Shown here piece by piece: positions 8,906-26,423 of a stretch of DNA of 58,614 bases. Both the position numbers and the translations under genes were made by a program. A model generated the notes under the pieces. It saw only the letters and a program-made list of their open reading frames with translations, was not told the origin of the DNA and made no database searches. The DNA is from Haloplasmatales bacterium 4B (GTDB lineage: Bacteria; Bacillota_I; Bacilli_A; Haloplasmatales; Haloplasmataceae): NCBI GenBank assembly GCA_003586005.1, contig NSKI01000077.1, forward strand, positions 1 to 58,614. Reading direction: 5' to 3'. Each line of letters starts with the position of its first letter. Position 1 is the stretch's first letter.

Positions 8906-9820
8906 ATGAATAAAAAATTATTTTGGATTATAATTAGTGTATTTATTATAATTTTATCAATTGGATCAGCTTTAATTGTTAAATTTATAAATGATGATGA
9001 ACCATTTATAGTTCAATATTCAGTTGAAGAAAAAGCTTCTATATATCAAGATATTATTAATGGAAATGATTACGGTAAATACCTTAATGATGGTAAAAAA
9101 ATGAGCTTTGCTTTTGAAGACGGAACAACGACTCTTGAGTTATTAATTGAACAAGATGATTTTTTTAGTGCAGGCAAATTAGTAGAAAATGGTTTTGATT
9201 TGAATTTAGTAGATAACAATCATATTGATACTGTTACAAATGTTTTAGATTATAATGAAAACATTAATATGACATTTATCAATAATATAGCAATTAGTCT
9301 TTTAGAACAAATTAAAGATGAGATTGAAAATGAAGATTCAACTGGCTATTCTCTTCTAATTAATGCAATACAGTTAAATAACTATGATTTAGTTACAGAA
9401 ATATTAAAATTCACACAAAATATTGATAAAGTCTATCATAATGATACGGCCTTATCATATGCTTGTGGTTTAGGGAATATATTTATTGTTAAAGAACTAA
9501 TAAATAATAAAGCAAATGTAAATTATAAAGGAGATGATGGCTATAATTGCCTAATGAATGCAGTATCTAATCAACAAAATGATTTATTGGAATATTTACT
9601 CACTCTTGATGATATTAACATTAATGAACAAAATGATTTTGGCCAAACTATTTTACACGTATGTGTTGAATACGCTAATGTTGGAGCTGTAGACATAATT
9701 CTCGAAAATTCTAATATAAATAAAACTATAAAAGATAATGAAAATAGAACCGCCAAAGATTATGCTTTAAAGTTAGCTAATGACGATGAAGAAATAATGC
9801 TAATTTTCAATAAATTATAA
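8906..9820 (+). CDS. Membrane-anchored ankyrin-repeat protein
   Basis: Its function is unknown. The 304-residue protein begins with a single hydrophobic segment (about residues 4-26), with lysines in front and an acidic stretch after it, so the rest probably faces outward. The second half carries ankyrin repeats: TALSYACGLGNIFIVKELI, then DGYNCLMNAV...LLEYLL, GQTILHVCVEYANVGAVDIIL and NRTAKDYAL. Weaker repeats seem to precede them from about residue 90. Such repeats are protein-protein scaffolds. ATG follows AGGTGA. A TATAAT at 8854-8859 may be its -10 box. It opens the accessory island and stands 33 bases before the giant MORN protein, so the two may be cotranscribed. Confidence 0.8.
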   Translation: MNKKLFWIIISVFIIILSIGSALIVKFINDDEPFIVQYSVEEKASIYQDIINGNDYGKYLNDGKKMSFAFEDGTTTLELLIEQDDFFSAGKLVENGFDLNLVDNNHIDTVTNVLDYNENINMTFINNIAISLLEQIKDEIENEDSTGYSLLINAIQLNNYDLVTEILKFTQNIDKVYHNDTALSYACGLGNIFIVKELINNKANVNYKGDDGYNCLMNAVSNQQNDLLEYLLTLDDININEQNDFGQTILHVCVEYANVGAVDIILENSNINKTIKDNENRTAKDYALKLANDDEEIMLIFNKL

Positions 9821-9853: not shown

Positions 9854-12800
9854 ATGCGAAAATATACAAAAGTTTTATTTTTTAGTTTAGCTGGAATAAT
9901 ATTTTTGAGTATTTTAATATTTTCTAAACCGAGACTAGTAAACGCTGAAGATTTAACACAATTAAGTATAGATGATTTCACTACATATCTAACACAAATA
10001 AATAACATTGAGGAGTATTATTCTGACATTAATCAAATGATTATTACTAAATTTCCTGATTTTAATGTCGTAGAAAATTTAATTAATGGTGAAAGCCAAT
10101 ACAAAATATTGGAAATAACACCAAGAACATATTTAGGTGATCAATCTAGTGTAAGTGATTTAGATTACAATATTGAAAAAATAACTAATATTTATAAAAC
10201 AGCTTTGGCAAATAATAGTGCTTTGACAGGGAATTTCTTAATATCAAATACTACGAATTTTTCAGTTGATGTAATGACAATAAAGCAATTAGTTAATAAC
10301 TATGAAGAAATAGATGGCTTGTATGATGCTATTGTTTTTGCTAGTGGAGATTATTCAACAGAGCAGGTATTAAGTTGTGATTTTAATTATAATGAAGAAA
10401 ATTTAGAGTATGAAAGCAAATATGTACACAATAAGTTAAGGTATAAGGGCAATTTACTAAATTCTTTATACCATGGATATGGAAAAGAATATAATGAAGA
10501 TGGTAAACTAATATATGAAGGAACATTTAAAGAAGGTTTATATCATGGGTTTGGAACTCTCTACAATAGTAGTCAAAAGCCAAGTTATATAGGTGGGTTT
10601 ATAGATGGTAAAAAGAGTTGTTACGGAGTTAGTTATTCAACATCTAATTTTGTAAACTACGAGGGACAGTGGGTAGCAGATGTGCGAGAAGGGTATGGAA
10701 CTTCTTTTACAGATACTGGTGATTTAGAATATACTGGATATTTTGATAATGACAAACCAAGTCCGTACACACAACCAACTGAGGTTTTAAATGATATTAC
10801 AGATATTAAAGCAACCGAAATTATCGACGGTTATATTAAAAAAGGCTTGCCTGTTTTCATGAGTGATGACATATTAATTGATAATAGTAGTAATTTATAC
10901 AACTATTTTAATCCTTTAGTAAATGAATATGAAAACATTTTTATGTTAGACTATGATTATCTTAATCCTAACAATAATATTGAATTTTATAGTACACTTT
11001 CAATTTTGAAGATTACTGAATTACTATCTTACAAACCAGTTATTGAATTTATTGAAAAACCTATTGATTATCATGATAGTATTTCAAAAACTTATAGTCT
11101 CAATGAAACGGTGAATTTTAATCTTAATTTAACAAATAAAGAAGAAAGCAATTTAAGCTTTTATTTAGATGTTAACCAAAATGAAAATTTTGATCTAGAT
11201 GAATTAGTTTATGAATTTCCAATTCAAACTGGAAATAACTCATTTTCTTTCCAAATACCAAATGTTTACAGTGGTTTGTTAAAATATAAAATAGTTGTTG
11301 ATAATTTTAACCAACAATCACTATATACAGGTACTTTAAGGGTTAGAACTGAAGCCAGACAAGACATTAGAGTTTTAAATATTGTTTCTGAAATGGTTTA
11401 TAATAAAAACGGTTTATTTGTTGAAGAATTATTTAATAATTATTTTACAAACAATGAAGACTACAATATTAGTGTTACTAGTTGTAAAATAAAGGATTTT
11501 TCTAAAAACGGTAGTTATAATGAGTGCGGACATAAAAGGGTTATGGACTTTTATGATGTAATTTTATTAGGGCAAGATATTTTTAATAAAAACGTACCAA
11601 CTTCTGTATATCACTCAATAAAGGATCAATTAGATGAGGGTAAACCATTTATTTTTACTAGCTCAATTACTAAGGGGAATAAAAAATGGATGGAATATTT
11701 CGCTGATGAATTATCTTTATCAGATTATAGAACAGATTTATATAGGCTAAATAACAACATCAATAAACTACAAATAATAAATGATAGTAATTTTATTTTA
11801 TACCCATTTAACTTATTTAATGAGGAATTAACTGTTCCAGAAGGTTTAAATTATGTATTTAATGAAGAATACCAGATGGATTTGACGAATCCTAATTTAG
11901 TTCCTTTATTGAATATGTATAATTCAAATAATCTGAATTTTGATAGATTTGATTCTTACAATAATTATTACTATACGAAAAATGAAAATGTAGTATATCT
12001 AAATGTAGGGAGTAGCATGTTTAAACCATATAAGGATATTGAACATAAATTATTAGTTGATTCAATTGTTAATCTATATATTCAAGATAAAGCTAAAGAT
12101 ACTAAAGTAAGTGATATGTTCACAATCAATGCTTCAAATAACTATGAGAATGGCTTAATTGATGTAAAAGACCCTGTTTCTTTTGGTTTTACTGTTTATA
12201 GTAATAAAAATGAAAATTTCAATTATAAATTATTTATAAATAGTACTGAAGTAACTAATCATATTATATCTAATAATGAATATATCAATGTTGAATTAAA
12301 CGACTTTATATTTGTAACAAATGATAGTTTTAAAGAAGTAAGAATATGTGCTGAAATTGAAAATGAAAATGGAGAAAAACAAACGTATACTTTCTATGTA
12401 TATGTAGGTAATCAAAAAACTTATAATATAACTTATTATAATCCTATTGTAAATTCTATTAATAATTATATTGAAACCCATGTTGAAGGCAAGTATTTTA
12501 ATCAATATCGAATTAACTTTGATAATATTAGTGTCAATGATCTAAATTATTCTGTATTACCAGAAACAATATATTTAAGAAATATATTGTTTAGACAAAA
12601 GATTCCTGAGAATATTACTTATGATTCACAAGGATTTGTGGTTGAAGATAATACTTTGACAAAAGATTTGGGTAATATAATTTATACACTTTCAAGTGAT
12701 GGGTATTATGTACCTAATATAAAATCGAAGAGTTTCACCCTCCCATTTACTGCTAATGCAGAAGGTGATTACACATTTGAGCCTTCAACAATCACATTTA

Positions 12801-14017
12801 ATGGAATTGGTAACGATATTGATACTATCGCAAATTCTGGTGTTAGTTTTAAAGCTGCAGATGGTCTTAGCCCAACAATGGTTGAACCGACATTCGAGAA
12901 TTATATATTCATCCCATATGGAAGTTGTATAGAAGATTTAGCTACTAAATTTAATTTTACTAATGAAGGTATTATTAAATCTATTAAATTTGAAGAAACT
13001 GACTCTTACCTATCATTAATTGAAATAAATGGTAAATATAAATTAGTTTCCGATAATATTGGAGAACAAAATGTTAAAATTATTGTTGAAGATATCTTTG
13101 GTAATAAGTATAATAATATATTCTTAGTTAAAACGTATGAACCGATTGATATGCTAGAATTAAATGGTTTAGTATTATATCTAAACGAAGAAATGCCACT
13201 TCCTTTAACTATACTTCCAAACGATATCGATGTTAGAAATCTATTCTATGAGATAACTGGTGGTAATGGTGAAGTAGAAATTATTCGGAGTGGTGAACAA
13301 TTTATTGTTATAGCTAAAGCTATTGGCCATATAGATATTGTTGTTTATGGTTATAATGAATATGGTGATGTAATATCTCAAAAAAATACAATTTGTGTAA
13401 ATGAAGATGTTCCATTCCAATTTAATAATTTATATTTACAATTATTAATTGGTGACATATATACAGTAGATGAATTGCGTAATAATTTGATCATTAATAG
13501 TGCTGATATCACTTTTGAAGATATTACTTTTGAATCTCTAGATGAGGGAATTATCACAATTGATAGTAATAATAACTTAGTAGTAACTGGTACAGGAACA
13601 GTAGTAATAAAAGCGATAAACAATAATTTTTACTCGCAAATGATAATTAAAGTATCAGAACCGTTGTCAGAAGAAAATTCTGGTTTTGATGAAGAATTGT
13701 TATCAAGGCTAAAATTGTACCAAGGTTATAAACAATATCTAGAAAAATTTATTAACTTAAGTCCTGAAGGTCTTACAGTTGATGATGTTGAAATTACTTT
13801 TGAAATTATTAATGATGAAAATGGATTAATTGAAGATTTTGACCAAGTTGCTAATACAATGACAACTTATAGTGATAAAGCAGGTTTTATCACAATTGGA
13901 GTAACAATTACACAACAAAATAAATTAGGAGAAATAATTGAAGTTACAGATCAATATACATTCGAAATCCTAGTTGGTATTGATACTGATGAAGATTCAT
14001 TAAATAATAAACACTAA
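9854..14017 (+). CDS. Large secreted protein with MORN repeats, Rossmann-like and Ig-like domains
   Basis: Its function is unknown. The 1387-residue protein starts with a signal peptide (hydrophobic 7-23, likely cleaved after VNA31). Residues about 83-168 (YKILEITPRT to YDAIVFASGDYS) look like the first half of an alpha/beta fold. Four or five MORN repeats follow at about 197-300 (YHGYGKEYNEDGKLIYEG, YHGFGTLY, REGYGTSF). The alpha/beta fold then seems to resume with IDGYIKKGLPVFMSDD. A second similar unit (RVLNIVSEM to GKPFIFTSSI) lies around 500-620 and resembles DUF5057-type domains from memory. The C-terminal half is beta-rich, with two BIG2-like Ig domains near 1090-1270. No LPXTG or C-terminal membrane anchor is present. 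ATG follows GGGTGGTGAG. It ends at a terminator split by the IS element and faces the minor-pilin genes. Confidence 0.75.
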   Translation: MRKYTKVLFFSLAGIIFLSILIFSKPRLVNAEDLTQLSIDDFTTYLTQINNIEEYYSDINQMIITKFPDFNVVENLINGESQYKILEITPRTYLGDQSSVSDLDYNIEKITNIYKTALANNSALTGNFLISNTTNFSVDVMTIKQLVNNYEEIDGLYDAIVFASGDYSTEQVLSCDFNYNEENLEYESKYVHNKLRYKGNLLNSLYHGYGKEYNEDGKLIYEGTFKEGLYHGFGTLYNSSQKPSYIGGFIDGKKSCYGVSYSTSNFVNYEGQWVADVREGYGTSFTDTGDLEYTGYFDNDKPSPYTQPTEVLNDITDIKATEIIDGYIKKGLPVFMSDDILIDNSSNLYNYFNPLVNEYENIFMLDYDYLNPNNNIEFYSTLSILKITELLSYKPVIEFIEKPIDYHDSISKTYSLNETVNFNLNLTNKEESNLSFYLDVNQNENFDLDELVYEFPIQTGNNSFSFQIPNVYSGLLKYKIVVDNFNQQSLYTGTLRVRTEARQDIRVLNIVSEMVYNKNGLFVEELFNNYFTNNEDYNISVTSCKIKDFSKNGSYNECGHKRVMDFYDVILLGQDIFNKNVPTSVYHSIKDQLDEGKPFIFTSSITKGNKKWMEYFADELSLSDYRTDLYRLNNNINKLQIINDSNFILYPFNLFNEELTVPEGLNYVFNEEYQMDLTNPNLVPLLNMYNSNNLNFDRFDSYNNYYYTKNENVVYLNVGSSMFKPYKDIEHKLLVDSIVNLYIQDKAKDTKVSDMFTINASNNYENGLIDVKDPVSFGFTVYSNKNENFNYKLFINSTEVTNHIISNNEYINVELNDFIFVTNDSFKEVRICAEIENENGEKQTYTFYVYVGNQKTYNITYYNPIVNSINNYIETHVEGKYFNQYRINFDNISVNDLNYSVLPETIYLRNILFRQKIPENITYDSQGFVVEDNTLTKDLGNIIYTLSSDGYYVPNIKSKSFTLPFTANAEGDYTFEPSTITFNGIGNDIDTIANSGVSFKAADGLSPTMVEPTFENYIFIPYGSCIEDLATKFNFTNEGIIKSIKFEETDSYLSLIEINGKYKLVSDNIGEQNVKIIVEDIFGNKYNNIFLVKTYEPIDMLELNGLVLYLNEEMPLPLTILPNDIDVRNLFYEITGGNGEVEIIRSGEQFIVIAKAIGHIDIVVYGYNEYGDVISQKNTICVNEDVPFQFNNLYLQLLIGDIYTVDELRNNLIINSADITFEDITFESLDEGIITIDSNNNLVVTGTGTVVIKAINNNFYSQMIIKVSEPLSEENSGFDEELLSRLKLYQGYKQYLEKFINLSPEGLTVDDVEITFEIINDENGLIEDFDQVANTMTTYSDKAGFITIGVTITQQNKLGEIIEVTDQYTFEILVGIDTDEDSLNNKH

Positions 14018-14042
14018 ATACAATTAAAAAAGGCCCAAGAAT

Positions 14043-14046
14043 TTGA
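14043..14046. repeat. Target-site duplication, left copy
   Basis: TTGA sits directly outside the left IS end and is repeated at 15526-15529 outside the right end. A 4-base duplication falls within the 3-5 base range usual for IS3-family elements. Confidence 0.75.
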
Positions 14047-14071
14047 TGAACTTACACCTGTCAAGTAGATA
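14047..14071 (+). repeat. Left terminal inverted repeat of the IS element
   Basis: It begins TGAACTTACACCTG and shares ACCT and AGTAGA blocks with the other end. It matches the reverse complement of 15501-15525 at 18 of 25 positions. Confidence 0.7.
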
Positions 14072-14098
14072 GAAACAAAAAAGTTAAAAAATTTAATT

Positions 14099-15424
14099 TT
14101 ATGCTGCTAATAGATGACTTCTGTATTGTGCAGGAGCCATCTTTTTTAATGTCCATTGATAACGCGCATTATTATAATAATGCATGTAATTTTTTAAAAT
14201 GATTTTTAAAGATTTGATATCTTTAGCTTTATAATATTCGCATTCGTCTTTGAAATGGCCAAAGAAAGTCTCCATTTTTGCGTTATCTATACAATTTCCG
14301 CGACGTGACATGGACTGTATTATATTTAACTCTTTCAACTTATTAACGTACACTGGATTTGTATAGTGCATACCTTGATCAGAGTGAATTAAAGTGTTTT
14401 TCAGCTTGTCCTTCCCATATCTTTCAACTAATTGGTCAATAACATCTATTGATAGGTTTAAACCTAGTCCTTGTGATATTTTCCAAGCTACTATTTCACG
14501 AGTACAAAGGTCTTTTACTACTGATAAATAATAACGTTGTCCGTTAAAGATTAAGTAGGTTATATCAGTTGCGAATACTGTACATGGTTCATTTACATCA
14601 AACTTTCTATCAAGTAAGTTCTCAAAGGTATGATGTTCTTTATAAGCGTCATATAAGTGCCTATACGGGTTCTTTTTCCTAACAATAGACTGTATATTAA
14701 ACTTTTTCATTAACCGGTAAACCTTCTTAGGATTCATCACAATTCCAAAATCATTTCTTAAACACATCGTTATTCTTAGATAACCATATTCTTTTTGTTT
14801 ATCCCATATATCTTTAATTAAATTAAAATCTAATTTATCTTGATGTTCTCTTTTCTCTCTATTTTCAGTTGATTTAATCCATTTATAATAACCTGATCTA
14901 GATACCTTGAAATATTCACATAATGTTCTTAAAGGTACATTTATTTTACCTTTTAATTCATCAATAAACTGAAATATTAAATGTGTAGGCACATAATTAT
15001 TTTCGTTTATTTTCACCTTCCTTCCTTGACTTAATTGCTTTTTTAATGCATCATTCTCCTTCATTAAAGCTTCAATCATCTTTTCTTGAATCAAGACCTT
15101 CTCTTCAGCTGTTATTTCTTTTTTCTCAGGTCTTCCAGATTTACCATTAACATTACGTCCTCTAGTTTCTTCAAAGAAGGATTCCTTTCCTAGTGAGTCA
15201 TACTGCTTTTCCCATATTCTGATGTATTCTCTACTTTTAAATTGTTTAAAAGGTAAATCACATGAATAAAATATTTCTCTAGCTGTGAAACCTTGCTTTT
15301 TCATTTCTACAGCTTTAACTTTAAATACTGGTGAATATTGAATAGTTTTTCCAACTGATTTCACATATTCATTATTCTCTAATTCTGTTTTATGTTCTTT
15401 AATATATTCCTTTAATTTTAACAC
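14099..15424 (-). CDS. IS3-family transposase, single reading frame
   Basis: It cuts and joins the ends of its own IS element. The 441-residue protein has an N-terminal helix-turn-helix part (about 28-90), a basic/coiled linker with a leucine-zipper-like helix (about 103-135), an HTH_21 region (EYGYLRITMCL near 212) and an rve catalytic core. The triad is D287 (ATDITYL), D349 (IHSDQGMHY) and E385 (NAKMETFFGHF), the canonical D-D(35)E spacing. IS3 elements usually use two frames joined by a programmed frameshift, but here both parts are in one frame. The start is GTG at 15424 behind GGGAGGG (15434-15440). No stop or frameshift is seen. Confidence 0.93.
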   Translation of the reverse strand: MLKLKEYIKEHKTELENNEYVKSVGKTIQYSPVFKVKAVEMKKQGFTAREIFYSCDLPFKQFKSREYIRIWEKQYDSLGKESFFEETRGRNVNGKSGRPEKKEITAEEKVLIQEKMIEALMKENDALKKQLSQGRKVKINENNYVPTHLIFQFIDELKGKINVPLRTLCEYFKVSRSGYYKWIKSTENREKREHQDKLDFNLIKDIWDKQKEYGYLRITMCLRNDFGIVMNPKKVYRLMKKFNIQSIVRKKNPYRHLYDAYKEHHTFENLLDRKFDVNEPCTVFATDITYLIFNGQRYYLSVVKDLCTREIVAWKISQGLGLNLSIDVIDQLVERYGKDKLKNTLIHSDQGMHYTNPVYVNKLKELNIIQSMSRRGNCIDNAKMETFFGHFKDECEYYKAKDIKSLKIILKNYMHYYNNARYQWTLKKMAPAQYRSHLLAA

Positions 15425-15464
15425 CTGTAATTTCCCTCCCGAAACTAATTACTTTTATTATAAT

Positions 15465-15517
15465 AAAAAATACCTATAGAGCAACACCTTTTTTATTATG
15501 TGTCTACTCTATAGGTA
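15465..15517 (-). terminator. Terminator-like hairpin at the IS right end, reading toward the transposase
   Basis: The perfect 11-base inverted repeat TACCTATAGAG (15471-15481) / CTCTATAGGTA (15507-15517) is followed on the minus strand by a six-T run (15470-15465). It lies between the outside of the IS and the transposase start. It would block transcripts entering from flanking DNA, a known way for IS elements to limit chance activation. Confidence 0.65.
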
Positions 15518-15612: not shown

Positions 15613-17319
15613 CTAATTTATTATTATATCTTCAAAAAAATAATTTGCTTTTTCGCTAATTGGTAAGCCTTTGGGTTGATTCAAGATAATATCTGGGCTA
15701 TATTTTATTACAAATCTTGATTCTAGATAGCTTTCTGGTGGTAAAAATATGAAATCACCGGCACTACGCCTTACTTCGCCTCGATAGCTATTAATTAATA
15801 ATCCGACACTATCAGTTCCGTCAATATATGTTGTATCTTCGCTATGATTATTTATATCATTACTGAAAATACCACCTTCTAGAGTTAAATAAGAATTACT
15901 AGTGTAGATTGAAACACTTCCTTCGGAGTAGAAAAATCCCCTTATATCAGGGTTGAATTCTCCAGTTAGTTCATCAAAACGTTTACTAAAGTCATTGTCA
16001 AATTCATTTATTGCTGAAAATTGCATGTTACCTTTAGTTAATAAAACTAATTGATTGTCTTTAAGAATAGTAGGATCAAAATGATCTGAGCTATTGATAC
16101 TAGCGCTATGAATTAACCCACTTCCCAAACTATACGTAGTGCTATTTATTTGAACATCTCCAGAGATACTTATATTACCAGTCACAATAAAATTAGCATC
16201 GATAAATATTGTATTAAATATATCACGTTTTTCAATTTTTAAATCGCCATCAATTATAACCCATTCATCTTTATTGAATGAAAAATTATGATCAATAACC
16301 GTCACTGGTTCTCTTACTATGATTGATTGAGTGGGATCGAGGTATTGATTAAGAGAATCTACTTCATTTAATAAATTTTCGCTTATAAAATCACCAAATT
16401 CAGTATTTAAATTATTTATGTCAATTGTGCGACTAGAATCTTTGATTGATTCACCTATATAATAAGTATATGATTTATCAAAGTTTATATCAACAAACTT
16501 TTCAGTAAAATATTTAATTTTAGGTGGGTTCTGACTAAATGTAGTAGGGATTTCAAAACTTTCTGTAATTTGAACAAATTTATTGGGGCTTTTTAAAAAT
16601 TTAGTTGGATCAGTTTCTATGTCATAACAAGGAATTATATTGTTTTTACACGAATAAAAAGGTTTATTAATTAAAGATTTCCCAAAATATATATTATTTG
16701 TCGTATCGACAGTTAAGAAAGTAGAGTTTTTTTGGTATAAGCTACTATCTAGAATATAATTTGTAGTATCAGCTAAATAAAGATTTCGATCAACATACAT
16801 ATCACCTAAAACATAGGCTCCACCATTAATTGTCATATCAGTTTTTGAACCTAACGCATAGTAAAGATAGGAGGGGATAGTAGATAAGAAAAATTTTCTT
16901 TGGGCAACTATATCTTCATTTACATAAATAATATCATAAGCATACGTTGAATCTGTATTTACATCATAACATGGGTTAAGATCATTTATTACTGGATATT
17001 CACAGGGCTCTACGGTTAAATCACGAATTATTACATCATAATTATTTTGAATTTCATTAAATTCTCTTTGTATATCAGCCTGTAATACAGATAAACTAAT
17101 AACATTTTCAAATAAATTTGTATCAAAATAATTTATTAGTTCACTGCTTGCTGCCTCTATTTGCATATTAGCTTTACTAATGTCTTTTATATTTTTTACA
17201 TTTTTATCAACCCATAATGTTCTCGACATCGTTAAATTCGTCAATGTCGCTGTTAATAAAATTAATAATGACAATATCCCAATTGCATAAACTAGGACAT
17301 ATCCACGTTTATTAAGCAC
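15613..17319 (-). CDS. PilX-like large minor pilin / pilus tip protein
   Basis: It is probably an exported subunit of the type IV pilus made by this island. The 568-residue protein starts with a class III-like signal: NKRGYVLVYAIGI followed by a hydrophobic helix. It has the Gly-aromatic junction but no Glu5, as in PilX/GspK-type minor subunits. The large exterior part is rich in beta-strand patterns with repeated short Gly/Asn turns (TINGGAYVLGDMYVDRN, TGNISISGDVQI), like a beta-helix. I choose GTG at 17319 because GGAGGTGAT (17323-17331) lies five bases before it; the longer reading from 17334 would start on that site. It is third in a leftward operon behind two prepilin genes. Confidence 0.72.
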   Translation of the reverse strand: MLNKRGYVLVYAIGILSLLILLTATLTNLTMSRTLWVDKNVKNIKDISKANMQIEAASSELINYFDTNLFENVISLSVLQADIQREFNEIQNNYDVIIRDLTVEPCEYPVINDLNPCYDVNTDSTYAYDIIYVNEDIVAQRKFFLSTIPSYLYYALGSKTDMTINGGAYVLGDMYVDRNLYLADTTNYILDSSLYQKNSTFLTVDTTNNIYFGKSLINKPFYSCKNNIIPCYDIETDPTKFLKSPNKFVQITESFEIPTTFSQNPPKIKYFTEKFVDINFDKSYTYYIGESIKDSSRTIDINNLNTEFGDFISENLLNEVDSLNQYLDPTQSIIVREPVTVIDHNFSFNKDEWVIIDGDLKIEKRDIFNTIFIDANFIVTGNISISGDVQINSTTYSLGSGLIHSASINSSDHFDPTILKDNQLVLLTKGNMQFSAINEFDNDFSKRFDELTGEFNPDIRGFFYSEGSVSIYTSNSYLTLEGGIFSNDINNHSEDTTYIDGTDSVGLLINSYRGEVRRSAGDFIFLPPESYLESRFVIKYSPDIILNQPKGLPISEKANYFFEDIIIN

Positions 17320-17333
17320 ACTAATCACCTCCA

Positions 17334-17936
17334 CTAAAATGAGAATCGGTTTTCGAAGGCGTAAATATTAGATGTTTTATCACCGTTTTTATTTATTTTG
17401 TAAATTGATAATCTAATTGATAAAGTAAAGTTTTGACAAATATCAATACTTCCGTCGTTACAATCATAACTTAGATTTGGTTTTTCAACATTATCACCAT
17501 TTATATTGACTATATTAAATCTTTCTACAGCATAACTTTTATTATTTAATTGCATATTTTTAATAAAAATATTATTATTTTCAATTCTAATTTTCACTAT
17601 TTTTTCACCAGATTCTGATGGCGGGATCTCCTCAATTATGCCTAAATAGGGATTTATTACCCTTATTCTATCTATAACCAATTCTATGCAATTTTCAATT
17701 TTTACATCATCTACTTTACAACTTCTAGCAAAATCTGGGTTAAAGGCATTAACTTGTGAAATTAAAGTGTTCATTATATAATTCGCTTCTATGTAAATTG
17801 CACCTTCACCATTTACTTTATCATAACTTTTTACAGCGTAAGTTAAAGTTGAAGTTAAAAGAACAACAACTATACTAACGATTGATAAGTAGGCTAATAA
17901 CTCCATTAGGGTAATCCCTTTTTTATTTTTAATCAT
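17334..17936 (-). CDS. Type IV prepilin-like protein
   Basis: It is a likely minor pilin. The 200-residue protein has a textbook leader and N-terminal helix: KNKKG then ITLMELLAYLSIV, with cleavage after Gly and Glu at position 5. The C-terminal domain contains a pair of cysteines within DCNDGSIDICQNF and another in the middle, which may form a disulphide. Its 3' end lies 15 bases before the chosen start of the PilX-like gene, and its start overlaps the preceding prepilin gene by 8 bases, so the three are translated as one unit. Confidence 0.85.
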   Translation of the reverse strand: MIKNKKGITLMELLAYLSIVSIVVVLLTSTLTYAVKSYDKVNGEGAIYIEANYIMNTLISQVNAFNPDFARSCKVDDVKIENCIELVIDRIRVINPYLGIIEEIPPSESGEKIVKIRIENNNIFIKNMQLNNKSYAVERFNIVNINGDNVEKPNLSYDCNDGSIDICQNFTLSIRLSIYKINKNGDKTSNIYAFENRFSF

Positions 17937-18516
17937 TAGTTATCACTCCTTCTAATAAAAAATCATACCTGTTATTAATAGATGAATTTACGACAACAAT
18001 TACACGAATTATGTTATTATTGGTGTTCGATGGTGTATAATTTGAGATGTCTAAATTTCCAAAATATTTTTCAAGGATTTCATCCTCAAAAAATAAAGAC
18101 TTCAATGATGAAAGCTTATCTGGATCATTGTAAGGTACAATATATATCCTTAAATTCGATTCATTAAAATGTTTATTATTAATTATTGGATTTAAGACCA
18201 AATTACATAACTCTTCATTAAAATCTTGATTTTCTTGTAATAGAGTGCTACATTTACTACTATCAATAATAGCGTGGTTTTCAATAGCATAGTCTTCATA
18301 GTAATTTTTAATAACAAAAAAGTCCAACCCTTTAATATAACTTAGTGCAGAATTTGCGACATTTGCATTTACGGATTTTTCCTGATTTACCTCATTTTGT
18401 CGAATATTGTTAGCTAAAATACGATAAATCATCAATAATGCGATTGAAGCTATAGTAATTGTGGCAATTATCTCAATTAAAGATGCTCCTTTATTATTTA
18501 ATTTAAACTTTTGCAA
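17929..18516 (-). CDS. Type IV prepilin-like protein
   Basis: It is a likely minor pilin and the first gene of the leftward operon. The leader NNKG is followed by ASLIEIIATITIASIALL with Glu5, a hydrophobic helix, and a roughly 160-residue soluble domain with paired cysteines near the middle. I start it at TTG 18516 because GGGTGAT (18521-18527) lies four bases before it. The alternative ATG at 18531 overlaps that ribosome site. The resulting length is 195 residues. Confidence 0.82.
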   Translation of the reverse strand: MQKFKLNNKGASLIEIIATITIASIALLMIYRILANNIRQNEVNQEKSVNANVANSALSYIKGLDFFVIKNYYEDYAIENHAIIDSSKCSTLLQENQDFNEELCNLVLNPIINNKHFNESNLRIYIVPYNDPDKLSSLKSLFFEDEILEKYFGNLDISNYTPSNTNNNIIRVIVVVNSSINNRYDFLLEGVITND

Positions 18517-18557
18517 AAGTATCACCCACATTTATAGAAATGATAAAAAAAATATAG

Positions 18558-18588: not shown

Positions 18589-18618
18589 TATCTTATGTTA
18601 GAAATGTAGGTGTATGAA

Positions 18619-19878
18619 GTGACTAATAGTAAAAAAATTTTCAGTTTCATTTTAATAGTTTTTATTACTTTAGTATTTATTACAGGTGTTTTAATTTATA
18701 CATCATTTATTAATACTACTAGAATTACACCATATAGTATTGATACATATGTTGGTAATGTTTATATTGGCGGTTTAAATGAAAGAGATGCAATTAAGCA
18801 GTTAGAGCTTGAAACTAAAAGTTGGAAAGATAATGCCTCTATAAAGTTAGATTACCAGGGATATAGGATTGATATTGATCTTTCTAAGCTAACATTTGAA
18901 AGCGAAAAATCAATTCGTACGGTTAAAGATGGAAAGAAAAAAAATGAGAGTACTAAAGACAATATCATTATTGCTAATATAAATGATGAAGATTATTTAG
19001 CTAATTTGATTACTGAACATAAAACGATTATTAAAATTGACGATTTTAACCTTAATACACTTGAAAAAGAAATAATTCGCTACGCCTCTTATTTATATAG
19101 TGATATTATTATAGATTTAGGTGCATTTATTAATGATGAATTGTTGTTAGAAGCAGAAGTTAATCAAATTGAGTTTGAATTTGCTGATGCTGTATTTTTG
19201 GAAAACAAAATTAATTATATACTAGATGAACCTATTGAGATAAGAGGGAATACTCAATTTTCTTTAAATGATTGGATAATTAGCAATTATACAACTAGCA
19301 CCATTTTTTCTGAAGAAGAATTAAATTTATTAGCAACAGGTATATATCAATTATTTTTGGAATCGAATTTTCGAAATTTATCAAAACAGATTAGTAAAGA
19401 AAAACCTAACTATATTATAGATGCAGGCTATGAGGCAATAAGTAAAATTGAAATTAATCAAGTGTCAGTTGAAGGAGAATTGACATATGAGTATGTAAAT
19501 CTTATTGATTTATCATTTTATAATCCAAATGGCAACTCTTATTATATTAAAATAACAGATGGATTAAATGACGCAAATAAAAATGTATTGAAATTCACTT
19601 TATTTGGTGCTCCTTTTATTAATTCGCATGAATTAGAAATTGAATCAACTGATATGATTCAAGACGAAACAATTAGATATGAAACTACATGGAATGGTGT
19701 CCAAATTGATGACGATGTTAAAATTCCCATTTCTTCTGGAAGACCAGGAATTGAGGGGATTATGTATAGGATTACAACAACTTATGATGGTAAAACCATA
19801 AAAGAATTTATATCACAAGACATCTATATGCCAGTAAATGCTATTTTTATTATGAAACCTCAAAATTATATTGGATAG
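18619..19878 (+). CDS. VanW/YoaR-like membrane-anchored protein
   Basis: The exact role is unknown. The 419-residue protein has one N-terminal transmembrane segment (about 6-30). It is followed by a PG-binding-4-like unit (VGNVYIGGLNERDAIKQLE), a possible second copy, and a C-terminal G5/VanW-tail-like strand region (PISSGRPGIEGIMYRI, then KEFISQDIYMPVNAI). The core VanW domain is not obvious. I choose GTG 18619, six bases after AGGTG; a GTG at 18610 is the longer option. It is 13 bases before pilB and heads the rightward pilus operon. It may link the pilus machinery to peptidoglycan, which is inference. Confidence 0.68.
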   Translation: MTNSKKIFSFILIVFITLVFITGVLIYTSFINTTRITPYSIDTYVGNVYIGGLNERDAIKQLELETKSWKDNASIKLDYQGYRIDIDLSKLTFESEKSIRTVKDGKKKNESTKDNIIIANINDEDYLANLITEHKTIIKIDDFNLNTLEKEIIRYASYLYSDIIIDLGAFINDELLLEAEVNQIEFEFADAVFLENKINYILDEPIEIRGNTQFSLNDWIISNYTTSTIFSEEELNLLATGIYQLFLESNFRNLSKQISKEKPNYIIDAGYEAISKIEINQVSVEGELTYEYVNLIDLSFYNPNGNSYYIKITDGLNDANKNVLKFTLFGAPFINSHELEIESTDMIQDETIRYETTWNGVQIDDDVKIPISSGRPGIEGIMYRITTTYDGKTIKEFISQDIYMPVNAIFIMKPQNYIG

Positions 19879-19891
19879 CAGGTGAAAATAA

Positions 19892-21544
19892 ATGAGAAGA
19901 ATTAAAAAAAGAATTGGGGATATTTTGATTGAATCTAGCTTAGTGACAAAAGAACAAGTTGAAAAAGCTTTTGAAGCAAAAGAACCGGATGAAAAGCTTG
20001 GAGATACCCTAATTAGAATTGGTTATGTTACTGAAAACCAAGTAATGGAAGCTTTAGAAGTACAACTTGGTGTTAAAAAAATAAATTTAAGTGATTATAA
20101 TTTAAATGAATCAATTTTAAGATTGATTTCTGAAGAATATGCAAAAGAAAATTTAGTGGTTCCAATTACATTTGAAGAAGGAAAATTAATTGCCGCAGTT
20201 GCTGACCCCCTTAATTATTATATCGTCGATGACTTGCGCTTAATAACTGGTTATAATATTAAATTAATGATGGCTTCACGTGGCGAAATTGAAACAGCTA
20301 TTTCTAGATATTATGGTATTAATCGTTCACTAGATCAGATTATTTTAAATTACAACGATAATAATAATGATGAAGTAGGAAATGAAAGTGATGATACGCC
20401 ATTAATTCGTTTAGTTAATCAGTTATTACTATCAGCCGTTAAACAGAACGCTTCTGATATTCATATTGACCCACAAGAAAACGAAGTTTTAGTTAGATTT
20501 CGTGTAGATGGTCTGTTAAATATTGAAAAAAGATTTCCGAAAGTTATGGAGAAACAATTAATCTCTCGGTTTAAGATAATTTCTGCACTCGACATTACTG
20601 AAAACAGGCGTCCTCAAGATGGTAGGATTAAAATGGTAATTGATAATACTCATCTTGATTTAAGGGTTTCAACACTACCAACTGTAAATGGTGAAAAAAT
20701 AGTTTTGCGTTTGTTAAATTTAAAAAACACATTAGGATCCTTAAATAAATTGGGGTTAAATACAAGAAACTACGATAAATTACAAAAATTAATTCGTAAT
20801 CCAAATGGGATAATTTTAGTATCAGGTCCTACAGGAAGTGGAAAATCTTCAACTCTTTATGCAAGTTTAAATGAGTTAAACCAAGATGAAGTTAATATTA
20901 TTACAGTTGAAGATCCTGTTGAATTACAGTTAAAAGGTATAAATCAAGTACAAGTAAATCCTGATATTGGTCTTAATTTTGCACATGGTTTACGTTCTAT
21001 ATTACGTCAAGATCCAAATATTATCATGATAGGTGAAATTCGAGATATTGAAACTGCACAAATCGCAGTAAGAGCATCACTAACAGGGCATTTAGTGTTA
21101 AGTACTATACATACAAACGATTCTATTGGCAGTGTTACTAGATTAGTTGACATGGGAATAGATCCATTCTTAGTTGCATCGTCTTTAATCGGGGTTGTAG
21201 CTCAACGTTTAGTTAGAAAGACATGTCGAGAATGTGGTGAGTGGAAAGAAGCAACAGAACGTGAAAAGAAATTGTTTAAAGAAGTTGGTATGAATATTGA
21301 AAAAGTATTTGTGCCAAAAGGGTGTCCATCATGTAATCATAAAGGTTATACGGGCCGGATTGCGATATTTGAAATATTAGAGATAAACGAAGAAATTAAA
21401 GCGATAATAAATAACGAAGGTTCTGAATTAGATATCAAAAAAGCAGCTTTCCAAAATAATACTCGTTTTTTAATTCAAGATGGTTTTGAAAAAGTTATTC
21501 AAGGAATTACAACAACTGAAGAAATACTACGTGTAACTGGATAA
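19892..21544 (+). CDS. pilB: Type IV pilus assembly ATPase PilB
   Basis: It is the cytoplasmic ATPase that drives pilin polymerisation. The 550-residue protein has the N-terminal MshEN/GspE-N domain (about 1-150) and the ATPase core with Walker A GPTGSGKS (312-319), the Asp box VEDPVE (about 339-344), Walker B IIMIGEIRD (377-385) and the His box STIHTND. A four-cysteine zinc motif (C445, C448, C478, C481) is typical of PilB and absent from ComGA. ATG follows CAGGTGAAA. Full length and complete motifs indicate a working assembly motor. No PilT retraction ATPase is seen in the window. Confidence 0.95.
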   Translation: MRRIKKRIGDILIESSLVTKEQVEKAFEAKEPDEKLGDTLIRIGYVTENQVMEALEVQLGVKKINLSDYNLNESILRLISEEYAKENLVVPITFEEGKLIAAVADPLNYYIVDDLRLITGYNIKLMMASRGEIETAISRYYGINRSLDQIILNYNDNNNDEVGNESDDTPLIRLVNQLLLSAVKQNASDIHIDPQENEVLVRFRVDGLLNIEKRFPKVMEKQLISRFKIISALDITENRRPQDGRIKMVIDNTHLDLRVSTLPTVNGEKIVLRLLNLKNTLGSLNKLGLNTRNYDKLQKLIRNPNGIILVSGPTGSGKSSTLYASLNELNQDEVNIITVEDPVELQLKGINQVQVNPDIGLNFAHGLRSILRQDPNIIMIGEIRDIETAQIAVRASLTGHLVLSTIHTNDSIGSVTRLVDMGIDPFLVASSLIGVVAQRLVRKTCRECGEWKEATEREKKLFKEVGMNIEKVFVPKGCPSCNHKGYTGRIAIFEILEINEEIKAIINNEGSELDIKKAAFQNNTRFLIQDGFEKVIQGITTTEEILRVTG

Positions 21545-21561
21545 AAAGGGGGCTTTAGGAC

Positions 21562-22779
21562 ATGCCTTTTTATAAATACAAGGCGAAAAATCGCGATAAA
21601 TATGTTGTATCAGATATAATCGAAGCTGTAGATAAAGGCGACGCTGTAAGAAAATTAAAGAGAAATGATATGGTTCCTATAGATGTAGTAGAAATTAGAA
21701 TTACCAAGTTGATGCAAGGTAAGGAAATTATTATAACATCAGGGGTATCAAAACAAGATTTAGTTTTCTTCCTTTCTCAACTTTATAATCTCTTAAACTC
21801 TGGTTTAATTCTTTTAGATTGTTTTAAAATAATTATAGATCAAACATCTAATAAATATTTACAAAAATATTTAATCAAAATTTTACAAGATTTACGAAAT
21901 GGAAGCACCCTTTATCGAGCCATGGCAAGACAAAAAAGAGCTTTTCCCAAATTGATGGTGGAAATGATACGGGTTGGGGAAGTGATTGGTAAGTTAAAAG
22001 AAGTTGTGAAAGATTTGCACATATATTATGAAAAACAAAATACAACAACTAGTGAAATCAAATCTGCTCTTATGTATCCAATTTTCTTATTAATTGCGAC
22101 ATTTGCTGTTACAACATTTTTAATGATTACTGTAGTCCCTCAATTTCAGGAAACTTTTGCCGACATGGGAAAAGATTTACCAGCTATTACTAGATTTGTC
22201 TTAGCGTTTAGTGGTTTTTTTGAAAAAAATATGCTTATGCTTTTATTTACCACTTTATTATTTACTATTATCGGAGTACTGTATAACCGCAACAAAAAAG
22301 GTAAAATGTTCTACAGTAAATTTACCTTGCGAGTACCTGTGTTTGGAGAAATTAATCGTAAGGGTAATTTAATTAAAGTTGCTAGAACATACGCAACTTT
22401 GCTTAATAATTCAGTTAATGCGATTGAAGGTTTAGAAATTACGAAAAATATAATTACTAATCAAGTATATATTGAAATTATTGATAAAGCACTTTTGAAC
22501 GTTCAAAATGGTGTCGCTATTAGTAGGGCATTTAGTAAACACTGGGCTGTAGACCCCGTATTTTCATCGATGATGGCAATTGGTGAGGAGACAGCGACAT
22601 TAGGAGAAATGCTTAATAGTATCGCAAATTATTATGATAATGAAATGGATATTTCGATTGAAAAATTGAAGAAATTAATGGAGCCATTAATGATTTTAAT
22701 TTTAGCAACAATAGTAGGAACAATCGTTCTTGCGATAATGATTCCACTCTTAAGTATGATGGATGGTGGAATAAGCTAA
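21562..22779 (+). CDS. pilC: Type IV pilus inner-membrane platform protein PilC
   Basis: It forms the membrane platform that couples PilB to the growing pilus. The 405-residue length is normal for the PilC/GspF family. It has two cytoplasmic T2SSF repeats, each starting with the VxFLxQLxxLLxxG-type pattern (DLVFFLSQLYNLLNSG and the related VARTYATLLNNSVN), and three hydrophobic segments (about 170-195, 220-240, 370-395). It starts 17 bases after pilB behind a G-rich AAAAGGGGG ribosome site. Confidence 0.94.
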   Translation: MPFYKYKAKNRDKYVVSDIIEAVDKGDAVRKLKRNDMVPIDVVEIRITKLMQGKEIIITSGVSKQDLVFFLSQLYNLLNSGLILLDCFKIIIDQTSNKYLQKYLIKILQDLRNGSTLYRAMARQKRAFPKLMVEMIRVGEVIGKLKEVVKDLHIYYEKQNTTTSEIKSALMYPIFLLIATFAVTTFLMITVVPQFQETFADMGKDLPAITRFVLAFSGFFEKNMLMLLFTTLLFTIIGVLYNRNKKGKMFYSKFTLRVPVFGEINRKGNLIKVARTYATLLNNSVNAIEGLEITKNIITNQVYIEIIDKALLNVQNGVAISRAFSKHWAVDPVFSSMMAIGEETATLGEMLNSIANYYDNEMDISIEKLKKLMEPLMILILATIVGTIVLAIMIPLLSMMDGGIS

Positions 22780-22796
22780 AAAATTTAAGTTTATTG

Positions 22797-22825
22797 TTGT
22801 TAATGAAATAATTAAGTGATATAAT
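22797..22825 (+). promoter_or_regulatory. Promoter of the major pilin gene
   Basis: TTGTTA (22797-22802) and TATAAT (22820-22825) are separated by exactly 17 bases. The start codon lies 42 bases downstream. A dedicated promoter plus a terminator after the gene would allow the pilin to be made in large excess over the assembly proteins. Confidence 0.7.
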
Positions 22826-22866
22826 AAATTTACCTTAAAATAAAAATTTAAATAGGAGGAGAATGT

Positions 22867-23373
22867 ATGAATACTTTAACAAAAAGAGGGATGACATTAT
22901 TTGAATTACTAGCAGTTATCGTTATTTTAGGAATTGTTGCTGCCATTGCCTTCCCAACGGTTAACTCATTAATTAATAACACTAAAAAAGATGCTATCGC
23001 GGCTAATGCTAATACTTTTATACAAACTGCTATAACTAATGTTCGAACTGATTATAATTCTATGCAGTATGGAGATTTAGCAGATGATTCCAAAACTTAT
23101 ATTGTTTATGTTGATGCATCATTAGACACAAGCTATCCTACAACAGTAACTGTTACCGATACTGATTTTCAAATAGATTTGAGTGATGATTTTCTTAAAT
23201 TAGATAAAGCTTATTTGACAATTACTATCAGTGATGATGGAACAAATATTGTATTATCAACGTTTGTTTATATCGAAGGAGATTATGGGGTAGATGAGGG
23301 TACAGTAGCAGATGAAGATACTCCAATAACTAGAAAGCATGTAATTGATAGTACAGATGTAACGATTGCATAA
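22867..23373 (+). CDS. Major type IV pilin
   Basis: It is the likely main subunit of the pilus. The 168-residue prepilin has a short leader (NTLTKRG), cleavage after Gly, then MTLFELLAVIVILGIVAAIAF with Glu5. The soluble part starts with an Asn/Ala-rich helix and continues in acidic beta-rich sequence without cysteines. The start ATG follows AGGAGGAG, the strongest ribosome site in the cluster. It has its own promoter (22797-22825) and terminator (23378-23404), which supports a high-abundance structural role. Confidence 0.88.
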   Translation: MNTLTKRGMTLFELLAVIVILGIVAAIAFPTVNSLINNTKKDAIAANANTFIQTAITNVRTDYNSMQYGDLADDSKTYIVYVDASLDTSYPTTVTVTDTDFQIDLSDDFLKLDKAYLTITISDDGTNIVLSTFVYIEGDYGVDEGTVADEDTPITRKHVIDSTDVTIA

Positions 23374-23377
23374 TTTA

Positions 23378-23404
23378 AAACCAAGACTTTGGTCTTGGTT
23401 TTTT
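23378..23404 (+). terminator. Intrinsic terminator after the pilin gene
   Basis: AAACCAAGAC / GTCTTGGTTT with a TTTG loop is followed by more T residues. It separates the pilin transcript from the prepilin peptidase gene. Confidence 0.88.
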
Positions 23405-23426
23405 AATACCTAATGGTGGTGAATTA

Positions 23427-24221
23427 ATGGAATTATTAATATATATCTACTTATTTATTTTTGGAGCTTGCTTTGGATCTTTTTATAATGTTGTTGGTCT
23501 TAGAATAAGTGATGGAAAAAGTATAAGTAAGCCCAGAAGTTCGTGTCCTAAATGTGGTCATGTGCTTTGTTGGTGGGAATTAATACCAATTTTAAGTTAT
23601 TTTCTTCTTGTCGGGAAATGTCGAGAGTGTAAATCGCATATATCGACAAAATATTTATTATTTGAAATTGTGACTAGTTTACTATTTATGTATTGTTATT
23701 TCATGTTTGGATTTAGTGGCGAATTTATAATTAGTCTTATGTTTGTTAGCTTGATTATAATTATTAGTGTTTCTGACTTGGAATATATGATAATTGAAGA
23801 TAAAGTACTTATTTTCTTTTTTGGCCTTTTAGTTTTACTACGTGTTTTTATAAAATTGCCTACTGAATTTTTGACATTTAATATTAATCATTATCTTGAA
23901 AGCTTAATTGGCGGTCTTTTTGGCTTTATTTTATTGTATTTAATCGCATTTATTGGGCAAATAGTATATAAACAAGAAGTAATGGGTGGCGGAGACATTA
24001 AATTGTATGGTATAATTGGAATAGTATTAGGTTTAAAAATGACTTTATTATCATTGTTTTTTGCTTCAACTGTCGGTACTGTAATTAGTTTATTATTAAG
24101 TAGTTTAAAAATGATAAATAAAGAGAAACCAATTCCATTTGGACCATTCATCGGGATAGGTTGTTTACTTACTTACTTTTATGGAATTGAGATATTAAAG
24201 TGGTATTTTAACTTATTTTAA
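23427..24221 (+). CDS. Prepilin peptidase / N-methyltransferase
   Basis: It cleaves prepilin leaders after Gly and methylates the new N-terminus in the membrane. The 264-residue protein has the N-terminal GACFGSFYNVVGLRI motif, a cytoplasmic four-cysteine zinc site (CPKCG and CRECK) and several transmembrane helices. The two catalytic aspartates lie in SVSDLEYMIIED and in MGGGDIKLYG (the GxGD motif). No second peptidase is visible near the comG operon, so this enzyme probably processes both systems. It stands between the pilin and pilM genes; ATG follows GGTGGTGA. Confidence 0.94.
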   Translation: MELLIYIYLFIFGACFGSFYNVVGLRISDGKSISKPRSSCPKCGHVLCWWELIPILSYFLLVGKCRECKSHISTKYLLFEIVTSLLFMYCYFMFGFSGEFIISLMFVSLIIIISVSDLEYMIIEDKVLIFFFGLLVLLRVFIKLPTEFLTFNINHYLESLIGGLFGFILLYLIAFIGQIVYKQEVMGGGDIKLYGIIGIVLGLKMTLLSLFFASTVGTVISLLLSSLKMINKEKPIPFGPFIGIGCLLTYFYGIEILKWYFNLF

Positions 24222-24238
24222 AATTTGTAGGTGATGAT

Positions 24239-25159
24239 ATGGGTTTATTTAGAAAAAACGTGATAAATTTAATGTTCACAGATAATTATATTAAATTTGC
24301 TTTAGTAGATGAAAAGCATTTAACTGTTCGAAAAATAGGTGAAGTTAAATTAAAAAACGGTATTATTATATCTGGAAAAATCATGGATGAGAGCCTCGTT
24401 ATTAAAATATTGGGTACTATTATTAGAAAATACCACTTAAGATCCCCTTTTGTAAAATTGATGGTTCCAGATCAAAATTTAATTATTAAAAAAGTAAAAG
24501 TGCCTAAGTATCTAAAAGGCGAAGACCTTAAAAAATATTTAAGATTAGAATTAGAAGAATCTTTACAATCCTTACCATTTAAAGATCCGATAATCGATAT
24601 TATAGACTATCAAATTTTAAGTGATGAAGATGATAAGGAAGTTATTATGTTTACAACTTCCAAAGAAATTATGTTATCGTATTTAAGAGTAATTCAAAAA
24701 CATCGTAAAAACGTAATTGATTCTTTTCCTTCACCATTATTAACTAGGAAGTTATATTTATTTTCAAAGAAACTTAGGAATAATGATCAACGCTTTACAA
24801 TGTTTACTCAAATTAGGGAAAATACTCATATTTTAACTGTTTTTGATAATGAAATACCTATTTTATCACTAAGAGATACTTTTGAGATTGAAGATTATGA
24901 TGAAGATTTTTATGTGGATCAAATTCTTGATGTATTAGAAAGAATCTGTCACTTTTTTCAATATCAATTTACTAAAAATCAAGATAAAGTTCAAAAAATA
25001 GTTATTTATACTGATATTGAATTTAATTACAATTTACAAGAACTGATTAATGAAAAAATTGATGTTGAAGTTGAATTTATAGACAACATAAAATTTAAAT
25101 CTACATTTCCAAAAGATAGGGTAATAAAATATTATTTACCAATATCAATGAGTTTATAG
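24239..25159 (+). CDS. pilM: PilM-like pilus assembly protein
   Basis: PilM is an actin-like cytoplasmic protein that binds the N-terminus of PilN at the inner membrane. The 306-residue protein shows the family-like start (INLMFTDNYIKFALVDEK), a central LMVPDQNLIIKKVKVP strand-helix region and a GEDLKKYLRLELEESL segment as in PilM. It is shorter than the usual 350 or so residues, and the ATP-binding motifs are weak by eye, so the assignment rests partly on its place before PilN and PilO. It starts 17 bases after the peptidase gene. Confidence 0.78.
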   Translation: MGLFRKNVINLMFTDNYIKFALVDEKHLTVRKIGEVKLKNGIIISGKIMDESLVIKILGTIIRKYHLRSPFVKLMVPDQNLIIKKVKVPKYLKGEDLKKYLRLELEESLQSLPFKDPIIDIIDYQILSDEDDKEVIMFTTSKEIMLSYLRVIQKHRKNVIDSFPSPLLTRKLYLFSKKLRNNDQRFTMFTQIRENTHILTVFDNEIPILSLRDTFEIEDYDEDFYVDQILDVLERICHFFQYQFTKNQDKVQKIVIYTDIEFNYNLQELINEKIDVEVEFIDNIKFKSTFPKDRVIKYYLPISMSL

Positions 25160-25171
25160 GTTGGTGAGAAG

Positions 25172-25849
25172 ATGAAAAAATCAAAACCAAGAGCTATTAA
25201 TGAAGTTAAAGTAAAGTTATTACCTGAAAAGGCTAAACGTGATTATGTATTGCGATTTGTGTCTTATATCATTATTTTAGTTTTTGTAATCTTAAATTTT
25301 CTGATGGTTTATATTCCTAGAAATAATTTAACAAGTGATATAAACAAAGTCAAAAGAAGAATTGCAAACATTGAGCTAAAAATTGAAAATGCTGCTTACA
25401 TAATAAGAACTAGTGGTTATACTGCTATTTTTAGAAATAATAACGATACTGTAAACGATATTGAAAATAGCACATTAGATTTAAATAAAATATTTTTGTT
25501 GCTAGATAATAATGCTACCTTTAATGATGTTCAAAACTTATCAGAATTAGAACAAGCCAATCCAGAAAATTTTTTGAGAATAAAGCCAGAACACAGTTTT
25601 GTTGAATATGTAAGTTTTAAAGAATCAGACTCTAGTATTACAGTAACCATTCAATTTGACCAAATATCTGATTTATTTATTTATCAAGGCAATTTATTAA
25701 AAGTTAATTATGTATCTGATGTTAAAGCACCTAATTACACACTTGTACCAATGCCAAATGGAGATAGTAGGGTAAGAACTACTATGTTAATTTCTCTTGA
25801 CATCGAAAAGGCACCAATGGTACCTAAAGTGGGTGAAAGTAATGAGTAA
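25172..25849 (+). CDS. pilN: PilN-like pilus assembly membrane protein
   Basis: It is a bitopic inner-membrane protein of the pilus alignment subcomplex. The 225-residue protein begins with a cytoplasmic stretch containing NEVKVKLLPEKAKRDY, which resembles the PilN INLLP motif that binds PilM. One transmembrane helix (about 28-50), a short coiled coil (about 55-75) and a beta-rich outer domain follow. It starts 12 bases after pilM behind GGTTGGTGAG and overlaps pilO by 8 bases. Confidence 0.75.
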   Translation: MKKSKPRAINEVKVKLLPEKAKRDYVLRFVSYIIILVFVILNFLMVYIPRNNLTSDINKVKRRIANIELKIENAAYIIRTSGYTAIFRNNNDTVNDIENSTLDLNKIFLLLDNNATFNDVQNLSELEQANPENFLRIKPEHSFVEYVSFKESDSSITVTIQFDQISDLFIYQGNLLKVNYVSDVKAPNYTLVPMPNGDSRVRTTMLISLDIEKAPMVPKVGESNE

Positions 25850-26423
25850 AAAATATGTTATTAGACTATTGATCTGGTTTTTATTAGTTGTTATCTTAAG
25901 CATTTTCACCTATTATAACAAAGTGTTATTTATTAACCCTTTAAATCAATCAATTACAGACTTAGAACAGAAAGAAAAAATCCAACTCAGTACTTTAGAG
26001 GATATTAATAATAAAATTTTTGAATACAACCTTAAACTTTATGATGATAATACAATAAAACAAATGATACCAGATGAATATGATGAAAATGAAACATTGC
26101 AATTTTTTGTTTATCGACCTATAAATTTAGCTGAAGCAAAACTTTTAGGCATTAATACAGAAGATGTGATGCCAGAAAACATCAATTGGTCAAACTCTAA
26201 GAGTGATGACGGAGTAATGGCTAAAAAGATTATGATTACTTTTGAAATACAAGATATGTCTAATTTATCAACATTTATTGATGAATTAGCTGAAAGTGTT
26301 AGATGTGTATATTTTGGGAACATAAACTTTACCCTACCAGGTGAAAAAGGACTAATTTCTACTGAAACTAAGATTAAAATTACAATGGATTATTATCTGT
26401 TTTACATGAAACCTACAAGTTAA
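25842..26423 (+). CDS. pilO: PilO-like pilus assembly membrane protein
   Basis: It is the likely partner of PilN. The 193-residue protein has one N-terminal transmembrane segment (about 5-25), a coiled-coil-like helix (LNQSITDLEQKEKIQLSTLE) and a compact ferredoxin-like outer domain, the PilO layout. I start it at ATG 25842 (MSKKYV), five bases after GGGTGAA, overlapping the end of pilN; an upstream in-frame ATG at 25797 lies deep inside pilN. It is the last gene of the pilus operon and is followed by a terminator. Confidence 0.72.
   Translation: MSKKYVIRLLIWFLLVVILSIFTYYNKVLFINPLNQSITDLEQKEKIQLSTLEDINNKIFEYNLKLYDDNTIKQMIPDEYDENETLQFFVYRPINLAEAKLLGINTEDVMPENINWSNSKSDDGVMAKKIMITFEIQDMSNLSTFIDELAESVRCVYFGNINFTLPGEKGLISTETKIKITMDYYLFYMKPTS

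Follow-up and report, generated by a model that had tools for sequence, protein, structure and literature searches.

MORN repeats nested in a secreted DUF5057-type protein encoded beside a type IV pilus locus of Haloplasmataceae

Does a secreted giant protein carry its MORN repeats inside an alpha/beta domain, and what might such a protein do at the cell surface? The question is raised by a stretch of 58,614 nucleotides from Haloplasmatales bacterium 4B (assembly GCA_003586005.1, contig NSKI01000077.1), which is called the window here. The initial annotation described MORN repeats within the first of two Rossmann-like copies, behind a signal peptide and together with Ig-like domains. The features of the giant and of its neighbours are listed in Table 1. 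The membership of the giant in a pilus locus, absent from that annotation, is more informative than the nesting.

Table 1. Coordinates of the giant protein, its domains, and the neighbouring genes in the window.
Feature	Position	Strand	Basis
Membrane-anchored ankyrin repeat protein	8906..9820	+	Pfam, synteny, N-terminal TM
Giant secreted DUF5057-type protein, 1387 aa	9854..14017	+	ORF, homologues, DUF5057 match
Signal peptide, residues 1-31, putative cleavage after VNA	9854..9946	+	Sequence and hydropathy scan
Unit 1 first half, residues 83-174, beta1-alpha-beta2-alpha-beta3 (YDAIVF)	10100..10375	+	AF2, alignment, hhalign
Insert from Cys175, residues 175-310, with MORN repeats	10376..10783	+	Pfam, PDB matches, AF2, Foldseek
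Unit 1 second half, residues 311-392: helix LNDITxxKAxxII, strand PVFM, helices	10784..11029	+	AF2, alignment
GEVED-like beta-domain between unit 1 and unit 2	11036..11353	+	Pfam sub-threshold, AF2 beta
Unit 2, residues 503-743, uninterrupted ThuA-like alpha/beta	11360..12082	+	hhalign, Foldseek
C-terminal region, Ig-like in orthologues	12083..14014	+	Big_2 in orthologues L003, L004
PilX-like large minor pilin, mature residue 5 Tyr	15613..17334	-	Prepilin leader, E5 test
Two more minor pilins (17334-17936 and 17929-18531), both Glu5	17334..18531	-	N_methyl Pfam, E5 test
Type IV pilus machinery: PilB, PilC, major pilin, PilD, PilM, PilN-like, PilO-like	18610..26423	+	Pfam, synteny
TM protein, 422 aa, no Pfam match, precedes pilB	18610-19878	+	Pfam, synteny

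The MORN block and its position in unit 1

Beyond the signal peptide, a hydropathy scan of the giant gave no other transmembrane stretch. Homologues were present in all seven other Haloplasmataceae genomes searched; a plain protein search of 52 genomes of the same class, all outside this family, found none, and no relatives were found on the viral contigs or plasmids searched. The MORN repeats were detected by Pfam (PF02493, E=3.4e-7) as two stretches of the window protein. They span residues 197-304 with a period of 24 residues; the sequence gives a register in which repeats begin at residues 197, 221, 245, and 269, and half a repeat follows at 293. The features of the MORN family, namely tandem repeats of ~23 residues, the YxGxW...GxG core, and an antiparallel sheet, are all found. 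A search of PDB sequences with the MORN segment identified solved MORN proteins, including FAP266 (E=1e-19), MORN1, and junctophilin. The AF2 model of residues 33-743 contains an antiparallel MORN sheet at 185-298 (pLDDT about 90), and MORN proteins of cilia and junctophilin were the top Foldseek matches of this model. These Pfam, sequence, and Foldseek matches place the MORN repeats far above chance.

The DUF5057 domain (PF16480) was identified in a six-frame search, with 42.2 bits against a cut-off of 27.9, over residues 313-602 and almost the full model; it was unlisted when the window protein as a whole was run through plain hmmscan. The identification also rests on a blastp match to the DUF5057 protein of family f11 (G028, E=4e-7) and on the alignment. 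The aligned DUF5057 proteins have in common the NDIT..KA helix, the GEVED-like domain, and the second alpha/beta unit. Pfam GEVED is sub-threshold in the window protein (E=0.007), and matches 5 of 10 homologues (best 6e-5). The DUF5057 model begins at the conserved NDIT..KA motif of the second half of unit 1, the helix after the variable loop, so that the PF16480 boundary (window 10790-11659) is apparently misplaced. As the model starts just past the insertion point, the membership of its first helix in an earlier-starting unit has been hidden.

DUF5057 has no described function, and no mention of it was found in the literature searched. In about 395 Bacilli genomes, the domain was confined to three families, Haloplasmataceae, f11, and f6, apart from one weak match of 52 positions in an incomplete genome. 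One f11 DUF5057 protein carries a vWA domain (PF00092, E=7e-12), which is weaker in a second f11 member (9e-4).

On the upstream side of the MORN sheet, the AF2 model has a strand at 83-88, a helix at 102-120, a strand at 136-141, a helix at 143-148, and a strand at 159-162; on the downstream side, a helix at 309-329 is followed by a strand at 334-337 (PVFM). The pLDDT of these flanks is only about 45-75, and the AF2 models are shallow, with four sequences. The insertion point lies between the third strand of unit 1 (159-162, DAIVF) and the next helix. Unit 2 shows the same order without interruption: a strand at 503-511, a helix, strands at 537-545 and 569-572, a helix, and a strand at 599-601. 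When the insert was removed, hhalign matched unit 1 to unit 2 with a score of 46.7 (probability 92%, 123 columns). The 60 column shuffles scored 20.8 at most, and other parts of the giant scored 10-11. By profile comparison, units 1 and 2 are paralogous.

Relatives of the giant provide insertion-free versions of unit 1. The genome G005 encodes two giant homologues, L007 and L009. In L007, YDAIIFTTGDYTPKNVEEC is joined to LNDLTVLKANQLI by 17 residues, where the window protein has 137, and unit 1 is uninterrupted. At this point, L009 has 77 residues that include a Gly/Asn-rich linker. The DUF5057 proteins of two f11 genomes and one f6 genome have the same strand and the NDIT..KA helix, with a short variable loop in place of the MORN repeats of Haloplasmataceae. 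The MORN block is thus nested inside unit 1 of the window protein, as L007, the profile match between the units, and the order of elements in the AF2 model confirm. A reading of the flanking segments as separate domains was rejected on the basis of L007 and the profile match. The initial annotation therefore held for the MORN repeats, the nesting, and the second copy of the same order, and the DUF5057 domain which it proposed to search for was found; the comparison of the two units and the search for uninterrupted homologues, both of which it had proposed, agree with it.

When the MORN repeats were gained is a separate matter. The outgroup has no MORN, and the five MORN forms can be explained by one change on the tree. 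The branch which parts the MORN group from G005 has a support of 78/94. The tree fits a single gain within the MORN clade as well as a single gain followed by a loss in G005. The second scenario, which takes all Haloplasmataceae versions to descend from a MORN-bearing ancestor, draws on the fact that this support does not firmly put G005 outside the MORN clade; since MORN is likewise missing from the more distant f11 and f6 proteins with DUF5057, it is considered doubtful. It concerns timing only, as MORN would still be inserted with respect to the family at large.

All seven full-length homologues (7/7) have a Cys in unit 1 a few residues past the third strand. The candidate partner is found within a MORN repeat with a CYG/CFG motif in the MORN forms, and near the far end of the insert in L007 and L009. 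In the window protein, Cys256 of MORN repeat 3 may pair with Cys175. Unit 2 has Cys544 and Cys558, which are conserved in the family. This pattern fits extracytoplasmic disulphides, which we infer from the Cys positions; one of them might staple the insert to its base.

The MORN block might also be passive filler, placed in a loop that tolerates anything and without a role of its own. The absence of MORN from L007, the low-complexity linker of L009, and the variable number of repeats (L005 is shorter) are in line with this. Such a reading is rather unlikely, given that MORN has been kept in five divergent orthologues with 39-47% overall identity, with the repeat motifs and the Cys in one repeat conserved.

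The type IV pilus locus and the fold of the DUF5057 core

The giant is encoded beside minor pilins including PilX, which is the gene context typical of PilY1. In Haloplasmataceae, the giant follows the ankyrin gene and faces the trio of minor pilins, followed by pilB, pilC, the major pilin, pilD, and pilM; it is convergent to the minor pilins, outside their operon, and paired with the ankyrin gene. In two f11 genomes and one f6 genome, a single operon has the order pilM-N-O, minor pilin, PilX, minor pilin, DUF5057, pilT, and pilD, with two extra pilin genes between pilT and pilD in f6. The PilN-like and PilO-like proteins of the window locus were named by position only. The membrane protein which precedes pilB is kept in the Haloplasmataceae pilus loci with 30-36% identity, and was not found in the stretches examined from f11 and f6.

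One of the minor pilins bears the signature of a capping pilin. PilX_N was found in the f11 and f6 proteins at the equivalent operon position. Glu5 of the mature pilin is absent from the PilX-like protein in all loci (9/9) and present in all other minor pilins (18/18). Absence of Glu5 is the mark of the tip-capping pilin (PMC12040237).

The presence of DUF5057 coincides with that of the pilus. Among 18 genomes examined, true PilM was found only in those with DUF5057, all of which have PilM, apart from the fragmented G007, in which a pilus locus is visible. The seven genomes without DUF5057 include the second genome of f6 and three that share a genus with the f11 genomes; all seven give at most an FtsA-type background match. 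Both this contrast and the pilus association cover three families, with kinship ignored.

PilT was not detected in the Haloplasmataceae genomes G000-G007, where only ATPases of the PilB and ComGA types match the f11 PilT. A retracting adhesive pilus is therefore not assured in this family. The Haloplasma group is known for contractile cells, and a type IV pilus without PilT is odd for such a group.

Several other genes of the locus were noted. The ankyrin gene adjoins the giant in every relative with a complete stretch (including L028, L030, L013, and L015), and its product probably faces outward. In G005, two giants with different inserts and two ankyrin genes form a tandem array. The type IV pilus genes are followed, 4 kb downstream, by a separate competence pilus operon (ComGA/ComGB/ComGC-like, 30385-32640). 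In four relatives from at least three genera, a stand-alone ORF of 167-183 aa with DUF772, a transposase N-terminal domain, is located between the giant and the PilX-like gene (L013:14212-14715, L030:16310-16831, L015:15901-16425, and L014:5311-5862, all on the - strand). These ORFs are intact and under purifying selection (dN 0.20-0.36 vs dS 1.1-1.9), so they may be domesticated transposase fragments. In the corresponding gap of the window (14018-15612), an IS3-type transposase (14099-15424) replaces the ORF.

The fold of the core was approached through unit 2. Foldseek of the long model was swamped by MORN and beta-sandwich matches; unit 2 was therefore folded alone. From this weak model (pLDDT 54), Foldseek gave the ThuA-like proteins 4e5v and 4jqs (E ~4-8e-4, TM about 0.3); with 1t0b, the ThuA-like matches range from 4e-4 to 1e-2. 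However, the identity to these proteins is 11-13%, and Pfam ThuA has no match in the window protein. A search of PDB sequences with the DUF5057 core found nothing significant. The name of the fold is provisional because of the low confidence of the model. Neither unit has the catalytic Cys at the class I GATase nucleophile elbow (FIFTSSIT in unit 2, PVFMSDD in unit 1), and an enzymatic GATase role was rejected on this basis. The ThuA/GATase-like fold of the initial annotation is backed on its ThuA-like side by the structural similarity of this low-confidence model; neither Pfam ThuA nor the GATase Cys was found. Its Ig-like domains apply to orthologues, in which Pfam detects BIG2 (L003, E=7e-7); the window protein itself has no Pfam BIG2 match.

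The ThuA-like family is linked to sugar use, and surface carbohydrate proteins commonly have Ig-like and GEVED-like domains. The giant, with a unit 2 that resembles ThuA-like proteins, might then be a surface enzyme or sugar-binding protein whose ThuA-like units act on or bind carbohydrate, with the pilus genes as mere neighbours. This is improbable in view of the pilus linkage, which holds across three families with differing gene orders. In addition, close relatives without the pilus also have no DUF5057, and unit 2 has no GATase nucleophile Cys.

A possible pilus-tip protein and its known counterparts

In our reading, with a probability of roughly 0.6, the neighbouring type IV pilus has the giant as its non-pilin tip component, which would work like PilY1. 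The giant would be exported by its signal peptide, and captured by a tip complex that the three minor pilins form, with the PilX-like pilin without Glu5 as the cap. It would then be displayed at the fibre end, where it might prime assembly, bind surfaces, or both. The DUF5057 core, with two ThuA-like units and a GEVED-like domain, would be the conserved carrier and dock on the minor pilins; as its exchangeable module, it would bear MORN, vWA, or nothing. The loop of unit 1 might be an old variable site, at which the Haloplasmataceae grafted MORN. The grafted MORN might bind a ligand or a second tip protein, or dimerise. The tip location, the capture by PilX, and the binding role of MORN are what we infer from the combined analysis.

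In the best-studied cases, MORN1 repeats form dimers or oligomers rather than bind membranes (PMC7725318). For this reason, pairing of tip proteins or binding of a protein partner is likelier for the MORN block than binding of lipid. The partner might perhaps be the adjacent membrane-anchored ankyrin protein. In a wider sense, DUF5057 could be an unrecognised non-pilin tip protein of some monoderm Bacilli, a functional PilY1 with a double ThuA-like core and two grafting points; we regard the chances of this as even. The two proposed points are the N-terminus (vWA in f11) and the loop of unit 1 (MORN in Haloplasmataceae). If DUF5057 fills the role of PilC/PilY1, a family without a function would gain a testable one. 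The giant would also represent a clear extracellular use of MORN as a module spliced into another domain, and extend the view of pilus-tip evolution as the grafting of binding modules on a fixed carrier.

The MORN repeats of the giant can be compared with those of Fusobacterium, whose outer membrane vesicles contain 23 MORN2 proteins (PMC10434195). Both represent MORN repeats outside the cytoplasm. The MORN repeats do follow a signal peptide, as initially described, but extracytoplasmic MORN has this precedent. Nesting of MORN_2 in another domain is unreported in that study.

PilY1 is the closest functional counterpart. The PilY1 beta-propeller (PF05567) has no Pfam match in the giant at E<=10; the eight Haloplasmataceae genomes also gave no matches, but the control genomes were silent too. 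Judged by its sequence, the giant is not a member of the PilY1 family. Without a beta-propeller, the likeness is one of position and domain logic, not of homology. PilY1 is soluble and secreted, and has a variable N-terminus (vWA in some members) with a conserved carrier; in Myxococcus, PilX has been modelled as its contact (PMC7541494). Like the PilY1/PilC1 tip adhesins of diderms, the giant is soluble, secreted, and encoded beside minor pilins including PilX, and its f11 relatives combine a vWA module with the conserved carrier. The two giants of G005 with different inserts are comparable to the several PilY1 versions of Myxococcus. In contrast to PilY1, the giant has a double ThuA-like core as the carrier, and a monoderm host.

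A review of monoderm type IV pili describes the late-acting diderm components, including PilC/PilY1, as missing from these pili (PMC6916266). Tip adhesion via a grafted module is known in monoderms from the modular pilins PilB and PilC of S. sanguinis (PMC8179133). The vWA module is shared by PilY1 and the PilB adhesin (PMC7541494, PMC8179133). The S. sanguinis carrier is a pilin, whereas the giant is a soluble non-pilin protein with a signal peptide.
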